Assembly (NCBI GenBank): GCA_025454315.1
Contig: JALOOP010000127.1
Span: forward strand, 1-40,547
Length of the DNA stretch: 40,547 nt
Direction: 5' to 3'
Source: Oculatellaceae cyanobacterium Prado106
GTDB taxonomy: Bacteria; Cyanobacteriota; Cyanobacteriia; Elainellales; Elainellaceae
The notes under the pieces: generated by a model
Databases searched by the model: none
Told to the model about the DNA's origin: nothing
Seen by the model: the letters and a program-made list of their open reading frames with translations, nothing else
Shown here: positions 11,274 to 36,723 of the stretch, piece by piece
Numbering within the stretch: position 1 is the first letter of the stretch
How the letters are laid out: every line of letters starts with the position of its first letter
Translations under genes and position numbers: made by a program

Positions 11274-12185
11274 TCAGCGATCAAAGCTCTGCGTTGGAGT
11301 TTCTGCCCCTTCTTCAGCGCCTAAAGAGGAGAGGAGTCTGAGAACTGCATTGGGATCTTCAAGTTCGCCGACAATGCGTTTCATCGGGGTTGGCCAGACT
11401 TTGAGGAGCGTGGGTGTTGCTGCGACCTGATCCGCCTCGGCTAAATCAGGGTGTTTAGACACATCAATGACTTTCAGGGTGTAGGGTTGCAGCAAGGCTT
11501 TTTCGAGCAGTTGGTGGAGGTTGCGGAGGATGCGCTCTGTGCCACTGTGATGCCCTGCGACGAATAGCCGCAGCACATAGCCTTGGGTCATTGGGTCGGA
11601 GTCTAGTGATGACCAGGCCGAGGCCGGATTGCCGTTGCTGCTGGCATCCTGCAGCAGAGGTTCAGATTTTTCGTAGCGAATCACCAGGTCATGGTCTTGC
11701 CAGAGTTGGGGAAACTGTGTTCGGTAGGAGTCAATTACAGCTTTGTCGCAGACTTCTTCGATGCCGGGGGTGGGTTGCCAAGTGCTGATGGGTGTGCCAA
11801 ACAAAACATTGAGCAATGCCTGATGGCGCAGCACTAAGGGCGAGGCTTCGGCGAAGGTTTTTAGCTCTTGGGTTTTGGGGTCGAGCCAGCGATCGACCGT
11901 TGCGGTATAGCAAGGCACTAGAAAATGGGGCGGTTCGGGCAGACCCAGCACTTCTTGCATGACGGCGCAAAGCTGGAGATGCCACCGAGCCTGTTTTTGG
12001 GAGTCAATGCAGTACACCAAGTCGCCGCCGGGGGTAAACAGCGCAATGCCTTTGAAGGTTTCGCTGGGTTGTACCGGGGCAACGGATGGACGGATGGATT
12101 GACCGGGAGATGGATAGCCAGAACTCGAAAACATTGGGTGGAGGGCGATCGCGCAAGGGTGGACTCGGGGTCGTTTGCGAGTCAT
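11274..12185 (-). CDS. Protein with C-terminal KaiB-like thioredoxin-fold domain
   Basis: A 303-residue protein whose C-terminal part (about 199-288) closely resembles the clock protein KaiB: YVLRLFVAG, TLKVIDVSKHPDLAEAD, AATPTLLKVWP and MKRIVGEL follow KaiB in order. KaiB itself is about 105 residues and alone. In SasA a KaiB-like domain is N-terminal and fused to a kinase. Here it is C-terminal to about 190 residues of unknown type (FKGIALFTPGGDLVYCIDSQ at 44-63; no kinase, receiver or PAS motif visible) plus a polar linker at 175-198. The most likely role is binding a KaiC- or SasA-like partner or clock output, but this is inference. The start is uncertain: ATG 12185 or 12134, neither with a clear ribosome site. 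There is no kaiA, kaiB or kaiC nearby. Confidence 0.8.
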   Translation of the reverse strand: MTRKRPRVHPCAIALHPMFSSSGYPSPGQSIRPSVAPVQPSETFKGIALFTPGGDLVYCIDSQKQARWHLQLCAVMQEVLGLPEPPHFLVPCYTATVDRWLDPKTQELKTFAEASPLVLRHQALLNVLFGTPISTWQPTPGIEEVCDKAVIDSYRTQFPQLWQDHDLVIRYEKSEPLLQDASSNGNPASAWSSLDSDPMTQGYVLRLFVAGHHSGTERILRNLHQLLEKALLQPYTLKVIDVSKHPDLAEADQVAATPTLLKVWPTPMKRIVGELEDPNAVLRLLSSLGAEEGAETPTQSFDR

Positions 12186-12343: not shown

Positions 12344-12465
12344 AACCGCAGAGACGCAGAGACGCAGAGGGATTATGCAGTTCTCTGCCAATTTCAAAGC
12401 AAATAGCAAAAAATGGCAAATAGCTGAAATGGTTTAAACCGCAGAGACGCAGAGACGCAGAGGGA
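12344..12465. repeat. Duplicated AACCGCAGAGACGCAGAG repeat
   Basis: Two copies (12344-12372 and 12437-12465) of a 29-base element made of CGCAGAGA units lie in a larger direct duplication of about 93 bases; both are preceded by ATTTCAAAGCAA. Further copies are at 36415-36443 (same strand) and 24255-24283 (opposite strand). It fills most of the gap between the RTX gene and the KaiB-like gene. Confidence 0.9.
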
Positions 12466-24254: not shown

Positions 24255-24283
24255 TCTCTCTGCGTCTCTGCGTCTCTGCGGTT
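24255..24283 (-). repeat. Copy of the AACCGCAGAGACGCAGAG repeat
   Basis: Reverse-strand copy of the 29-base element seen at 12344, 12437 and 36415. It lies in the 224-base gap between the Cys-cluster gene and the first half-transporter. Confidence 0.9.
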
Positions 24284-36371: not shown

Positions 36372-36723
36372 GATGGGGATGGAGGGTTGGGGATGGGCTG
36401 AGGGGTTGGATTTGAACCGCAGAGACGCAGAGACGCAGAGGGAGGGAGATGTGGGGGAGTTTTTTTACTTGGGAGGAGGGGGGATTTGGGGATGGGGGGG
36501 GGCGATCGCTTAGAATCTAGCGTAGGTATTGGGGGGCTTTTGGCGGTTTTCCTCAAGGATTGGTCGGTTTTTAATACTTAGAGAGCCATGAAATTGCTGC
36601 GGGAATCTTGATGTATCGGTTCTTGCGCTAATGGGCGATCGGCTATCCTCCCTAAAAGGGGATTCCCTTCCGGGGGGCAACTTGACACAATAAAGGAGCA
36701 AACGAGCGAGAGAGCACAAAACC
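36372..36723. other. Gap with one CGCAGAGACG repeat copy
   Basis: It holds the same-strand copy of the 29-base AACCGCAGAGACGCAGAG element (36415-36443) and G-rich sequence with a HIP1 site. No gene is seen. The promoter of the YkvA-like gene should lie near 36620-36700 but cannot be marked reliably. Confidence 0.7.
36415..36443 (+). repeat. Copy of the AACCGCAGAGACGCAGAG repeat
   Basis: Identical over the core to 12344-12372 and 12437-12465 and to the reverse copy at 24255-24283. Confidence 0.92.

Follow-up and report, generated by a model that had tools for sequence, protein, structure and literature searches.

Elongated KaiB proteins of about 250 aa, in which an N-terminal extension of ~150 aa that is conserved in cyanobacteria precedes the KaiB domain, have been described previously (Schmelling 2017, PMC5520375), and according to the available text of that paper, homologues of the extension were not found outside cyanobacteria. 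The KaiB domain of these proteins was named KaiB-4 (Wayment-Steele 2023, PMC10808063), and the KaiB-4 domain of T. elongatus vestitus (WP_011056401.1, 8UBH) was found to be monomeric, fold-switched and thioredoxin-like by NMR and SEC-MALS (PMC10808063). The available text of the two papers states no function for elongated KaiB or KaiB-4 and reports no binding data for the family (PMC5520375, PMC10808063).

We analyzed an elongated kaiB gene, kaiB-4, within a 40,547-nucleotide stretch of DNA from Oculatellaceae cyanobacterium Prado106 (contig JALOOP010000127.1), referred to here as the window. The encoded protein is a member of the known elongated KaiB/KaiB-4 family. An N-terminal extension of ~150 aa that is conserved in cyanobacteria lies before its KaiB domain, and the protein has the architecture of the family, a conserved cyanobacterial N-terminal domain (N-domain) followed by a C-terminal domain that appears KaiB1-like. 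There is no essential difference from the family, and the PilT2-like gene described below is non-adjacent in the window's genome. A preliminary description of the window had called the protein uncharacterized; this stands for the function, as far as the available text of the family papers goes, but not for the family itself, which has been published. The 84 aligned residues of 8UBH match the KaiB-4 of a genome in our set (G064) at 100% identity; in this genome the kaiB-4 gene adjoins a PilT2-like gene. The KaiB domain of the window protein is 56% identical to 8UBH.

The features of the locus are listed in Table 1. Judging from the family alignment, the true start of kaiB-4 may be Met18 (codon 12132-12134), and the first ~43 residues of the window protein are variable in this alignment. 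The plus strand contains several stops in the same register as the kaiB-4 ORF; the preliminary description had named no strand.

Table 1. Positions of kaiB-4, the parts of its product and neighboring features in the window
Feature	Position	Strand	Description
kaiB-4 (elongated kaiB)	11274..12185	(-)	single ORF, 303 aa, ATG start
N-terminal domain, residues 44-172	11670..12056	(-)	predicted alpha/beta fold; modeled alone, pLDDT 88.4, pTM 0.83
Linker, residues 173-200	11586..11669	(-)	unconserved; pairwise identity 11.9% (173-198); mostly pLDDT <50
KaiB domain, residues 202-286	11328..11582	(-)	Pfam, PDB matches, model, residue tally
CTCTGCGTCTCTGCG repeat, two overlapping pairs	12347..12462	(-)	just upstream of kaiB-4
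CTCTGCGTCTCTGCG repeat, overlapping pairs	24258-24280		
CTCTGCGTCTCTGCG repeat, overlapping pairs	36418-36440		
RTX-type calcium-binding repeat ORF, 504 aa	12530-14044	(-)	upstream of kaiB-4, same strand

The KaiB-like domain that had been claimed for the C-terminus is real (about residues 202-286 of the minus-strand 303-aa ORF, PF07689), and all KaiB motifs quoted in the preliminary description are present in the translation. KaiB is the sole Pfam match of the window protein (residues 206-285, E = 2.3e-25, 88.5 bits vs. a gathering cut-off of 27), with no match to a histidine kinase domain. The NCBIfam KaiB models matched with E-values of 6.1e-22 and 2.6e-21 and the SasA kinase model with 1.4e-8, the latter aligned over KaiB-domain residues only and at 34.1 bits vs. 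a cut-off of 342. The cut-offs for canonical clock KaiB were missed (TIGR02654, 75.5 bits vs. an equivalog cut-off of 145.3; PRK09301, 77.7 vs. 110). The best sequence match in the PDB was 8ubh (E = 1.1e-23); cyanobacterial KaiBs followed at 1e-20 to 1e-18 and the KaiBs of the Rhodobacter type and of Legionella at about 1e-10 to 1e-9. The E-values were 0.001 to 0.002 for SasA and 0.12 to 0.72 for thioredoxins. A tree was built from 122 domains, in which KaiB-4 (92 rows, with the KaiB-4 fragment L052 counted as KaiB-4) grouped with KaiB, and SasA was split off by a branch with 100/100 support. KaiB1 rows branch within the KaiB-4 rows; the tree is based on a small number of columns, leaves many forks unresolved and shows no single KaiB-4 clade. 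Pfam, NCBIfam, PDB E-values and the tree thus agree with the initial assignment of the domain as KaiB-like rather than SasA-like. A fourth KaiB-like match in the window's genome (C454, below the cut-off) was rejected as thioredoxin-like by sequence.

The window protein resembles SasA in that a thioredoxin-like, KaiB-type domain is tethered to another domain, but it differs in the lack of a kinase match, in the C-terminal place of the KaiB-type domain and in its grouping with KaiB in the tree. With KaiB1 it shares the KaiB fold family, and the alpha-2 and ATPTL segments are retained in KaiB-4. The difference to KaiB1 lies in the length (~100 aa for KaiB1 vs. 303 aa) and in the altered residues Ile88, Gly89, Asp91 and Lys58.

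A thioredoxin-like state of the domain, raised as a condition for KaiC binding in the preliminary description, appears attainable: it has been published for the T. vestitus member (PMC10808063) and is predicted for the window protein. Residues 38-303 were modeled, and the strands and helices of the KaiB part follow one another as in the fold-switched state, with moderate confidence (block pLDDT 58-74). Foldseek of this model returned 8ubh as the top match, with other fold-switched KaiBs among the leading matches. In VIA-align, KaiBs (5jwr, Z = 12.7) were tied with a designed thioredoxin (7q3j, Z = 12.2). A placement with generic thioredoxins, the outcome that was to count against the KaiB assignment, is found by Z to the extent of a tie, but sequence E-values side with KaiB. 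We do not consider the tie decisive, because sequence, not Z, separates KaiB from thioredoxins.

The G89A/D91R mutation pair locks KaiB in its binding state, and Ile88 is among the residues holding the ground-state dimer (PMC6378743, PMC8059507). The window protein carries Arg283, Leu284 and Ser286 at the positions of Ile88, Gly89 and Asp91 of T. elongatus KaiB, and the canonical fold-switching residues Gly89 and Asp91 are therefore absent from it. For a wider tally, identical domains were counted once, which gave 91 KaiB-4, 14 KaiB1 and 14 SasA domains; the C454 protein, the KaiB-4 fragment (L052) and two divergent KaiBs (L182) had been removed from the KaiB1 set beforehand. Ile88 and Gly89 were found in 0/91 KaiB-4 domains and Asp91 in 4/91 (T. 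elongatus numbering); in KaiB1, both Ile88 and Gly89 were present in 14/14 and Asp91 in 13/14. Position 89 of KaiB-4 is occupied by Leu (33), Met (20), Ile (18), Val (13), Thr (3), Ala (3) or Phe (1), and position 88 mostly by Gln (51) or Arg (17). These family-wide losses and the model of the window protein both agree with the fold-switched state published for 8UBH.

The alpha-2 segment and the KaiC B-loop form most of the KaiB-KaiC binding site (PMC6769508). Checked as the preliminary description had proposed, the KaiC-facing residues of alpha-2 are kept in at least 90 of the 91 KaiB-4 domains (Pro51 91/91, Ala54 90/91, Glu55 91/91), with Lys58 mostly replaced by Gln (81/91). The lateral pairs for cooperative ring formation are weakened, as Arg23 is Arg or Lys in 62/91 and Lys26 is Lys or Arg in 38/91, and Asp91 of these pairs is mostly lost. 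Changes on the KaiA/CikA side are uniform (Ala41 to Thr in 88/91, Asn29 to His in 76/91). Judging from these residues, KaiB-4 could bind KaiC at once and less cooperatively, as SasA does, and it would be expected to recruit KaiA or CikA differently from KaiB.

As had been noted from the window, kaiB-4 lies away from kaiABC; kaiB and kaiC of the window's genome are located on another contig (C350). The distribution of KaiB-4 was followed in 289 genomes, comprising the window's own and 288 from its class with at least 95% completeness. The N-domain profile alone matched 159/289 genomes, with one match each except in two genomes. KaiC was above the cut-off in 281/289 genomes, and KaiB-4 was present in 158 of these 281. 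Of the eight genomes below the KaiC cut-off (picked by best E-values), seven were without KaiB-4 and only one, G136, carried it. In G136, kaiB1 and kaiC1 are both missing and SasA is present. Its match to the kai flank of a sister genome stops 423 bp short of a contig end; beyond this point, ~14 kb of the flank are unmatched except for short or repeat-like pieces. Since the kai-flank match ends close to the contig end, we think it most likely that the kai locus of G136 falls into an assembly gap and reject this genome as an example of KaiB-4 without KaiC. The co-occurrence with kaiC that had been suggested as a check is thus observed, with no solid case of KaiB-4 without KaiC in the 289 genomes; this set contains few genomes without KaiC, which do not count as independent tests, and no independent pairs are shown for the KaiC contrast. 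S. elongatus is probably without KaiB-4, as two genomes of family f12 lack it.

The N-domain matches the KaiB domain in conservation, with a mean pairwise identity among 92 proteins of 61.7% (residues 44-172) compared to 62.9% for the KaiB domain and 11.9% for the linker. Residues invariant in 92/92 proteins include Lys45, Trp68, His69, Cys73 and Asp98, and the invariant Lys, Trp-His, Cys and Asp could form a ligand or metal site. That no recognized fold precedes the KaiB domain proved correct for Pfam, NCBIfam, PDB, Foldseek and VIA-align, none of which gave a credible match: all Pfam matches were weak (best E = 0.022), Foldseek gave a cofilin-homology domain at best (E = 0.07), and VIA-align, for the families it lists, gave villin/gelsolin at best (Z = 4.5), with Stay-Green and others tied. 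With an E-value of 0.07 and a Z of 4.5, we claim neither a gelsolin/cofilin homologue nor a new fold. Stathmin matches of the N-domain profile (best E = 0.0017) were dismissed as chance coiled-coil, and no match was found in phages or plasmids at E = 0.01.

A thioredoxin-fold protein unconnected to either KaiC or pili, such as a sensor of redox state or of a ligand that relies on Cys73, Trp68-His69 and Asp98 of the N-domain, would agree with the invariance of Cys73 and with the tie of thioredoxin folds and KaiB by Z. We regard this explanation as very improbable, since the sequence E-values favor KaiB for the domain by many orders of magnitude, the KaiB domain of the window protein contains no cysteine and no solid case of KaiB-4 lies outside KaiC genomes.

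In 44/55 loci, kaiB-4 directly follows a gene for a PilT-family ATPase on the same strand; this corresponds to at most 42/53 different genomes, as L036/L085 and L049/L093 are the same genomes and other duplicates may remain. The gaps range from -94 to 391 bp, and the overlaps in 5/44 result from mechanical start choice. No other neighboring family occurs in more than 19/55 loci when short reverse-strand ORFs, which we read as shadows of coding genes, are excluded. Within the genome set, 118 genomes have both genes among the matches listed. By these matches, kaiB-4 is immediately preceded by a PilT2-like gene in the same orientation within 1.5 kb in 96/118 genomes, spread over 15 families, at a median distance of 51.5 bp to the N-domain match. 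The genes are apart in 22/118 genomes by these matches, including the window's own, in which the PilT2-like gene is found on contig C286. A gene is termed PilT2-like here if its product matches a single PilT2 protein with an E-value of 1e-90 or lower, and orthology may differ genome by genome.

PilT2 has been described as a second cyanobacterial PilT with a proline-rich N-terminus, and its mutant phenotype is disputed (PMC12288463). The ATPases encoded upstream of kaiB-4 carry proline-rich N-termini, and the one tested (L084) belongs to the PilT family (TIGR01420, 458 bits vs. a cut-off of 319). They differ from the PilT adjoining PilB in the window's genome. The upstream ATPase fits the published description of PilT2 (PMC12288463). 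As a PilT/PilU ATPase it belongs to a protein family separate from KaiB-4 and is a genomic partner only. The preliminary description missed the wide distribution of the family and its usual PilT2-like partner, which points to a pilus output and not only to a competitor within the core clock. No report of a pilT2/kaiB-4 gene pair or of a link between KaiB and PilT2 was found in the openly licensed literature, to which this statement is limited, and neither "elongated" nor "PilT" occurs in the available text of a 2024 Nat Commun paper on two Kai systems (PMC11372060). Relative to this literature, the conserved pilT2-kaiB-4 pairing is new here.

Other features near the pair were also observed. 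An opposite-strand family is found on the upstream side of the pilT2/kaiB-4 pair in 19/55 loci (L083-L122 and named loci), and the tested member (L115) is a UDP-N-acetylglucosamine 2-epimerase, wecB. In the window, the place where most relatives carry the PilT2-like gene is occupied by two pairs of a dispersed repeat, which recurs elsewhere in the window (Table 1) and is not known to have a function. An RTX-type ORF also lies upstream of kaiB-4 here in place of the PilT2-like gene; it scored above the Pfam repeat cut-off and below the curated NCBIfam cut-offs.

Several results argue against a close partnership of KaiB-4 with PilT2. A PilT2-like match without KaiB-4 was found in 102 genomes. 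Conversely, G056 (L046, L193) and G153 (L089) encode an open, full-length KaiB-4 together with PilT1-like and PilB-like genes and gave no PilT2-like match at E = 1e-90; G153 is a single contig, whereas G056 is an incompletely covered draft of 210 contigs, so its PilT2 absence is less sure. KaiB-4 was present in 157/259 genomes with a PilT2-like match vs. 2/30 without (Fisher test, 9.6e-9), a comparison to which we give no weight, as it is confounded by phylogeny because most genomes without a PilT2-like match belong to one small-genome family. Partial distance correlations over 40 genomes, given with bootstrap ranges, showed no co-variation of PilT2 with the N-domain (0.00, -0.14 to 0.15) or with the KaiB domain (0.04, -0.14 to 0.22). 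The corresponding values for KaiC were 0.24 (0.07 to 0.37) for the KaiB domain and 0.13 (-0.03 to 0.30) for the N-domain.

These results bear on two further explanations. KaiB-4 could be a modulator of the core clock only, which competes with KaiB and SasA for the CI sites of KaiC and adjusts the period or the output; the place of its gene beside pilT2 would then be an inherited operon without a physical link. The retained KaiC-facing residues, the fold-switched state, the absence of a solid case outside KaiC genomes, the persistence of KaiB-4 in G056 and G153 and the weak distance correlation of the KaiB domain with KaiC are all in line with such a role. It accounts neither for the second domain, whose conservation equals that of the KaiB domain, nor for the retention of the gene pair across 15 families while other neighbor families stay at or below 19/55 loci, and on balance we find it rather unlikely. 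The opposite case, a regulator of the pilus motor without a clock role, whose KaiB-like domain docks on the PilT2 hexamer (or on PilB/PilT1) instead of KaiC, would suit the conserved gene pair and the uniformly changed KaiA/CikA positions of beta-2. It is at odds with the retained KaiC-facing alpha-2 residues, the lack of a solid case outside KaiC genomes, the two genomes without a PilT2 match and the missing distance co-variation with PilT2, and we judge it to be clearly unlikely.

We tentatively propose that KaiB-4 is a fold-switch-locked KaiB adaptor linking clock phase to the type IV pilus motor, a reading we hold to be possible, if still somewhat short of probable. The KaiB domain, without its ground-state residues, would sit in the thioredoxin-like, KaiC-binding form and would dock on the KaiC CI ring like KaiB and SasA, minus the slow refolding. 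The N-domain, held on the flexible linker, would act on the pilus machinery, most likely on PilT2, the second retraction ATPase, and pilus retraction would thereby depend on clock phase. Alongside the observed architecture, the published fold-switched state of one member, the residue changes, the co-occurrence with KaiC and the gene pair, we infer KaiC binding, a contact of the N-domain with the pilus machinery (PilT2 or another part) and a control of pili by clock phase. The proposal is opposed by the two genomes without a PilT2 match, by the missing distance co-variation with PilT2, by the 22/118 genomes with separate genes, by the 102 genomes with a PilT2-like match but no KaiB-4 and by the probable lack of KaiB-4 in S. 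elongatus, whose pili are linked to the clock. In a more specific form of this proposal, which we consider doubtful, KaiC of the dusk phase would take up the locked KaiB domain, and the N-domain would deliver or withhold PilT2 by contact and not through RpaA-driven transcription.

A 2024 Sci Adv paper reportedly deals with a clock-driven oscillation of pili. S. elongatus produces its pili each day in the morning, and its competence is under clock control (PMC7125226). The present comparison brings together two orphans, the elongated KaiB, for which the available text of the family papers gives no function, and PilT2, whose phenotype is disputed (PMC12288463), which lie side by side in most compared genomes. 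Even a modest reading provides the KaiB-4 family with a genomic context that was not found in any paper of the openly licensed literature. If the proposed adaptor role is true, the Kai oscillator would have a route to surface motility or DNA uptake that is probably absent from S. elongatus, the standard model. The gene pairing in the relatives of the window suggests a testable daily link between the clock and surface pili.
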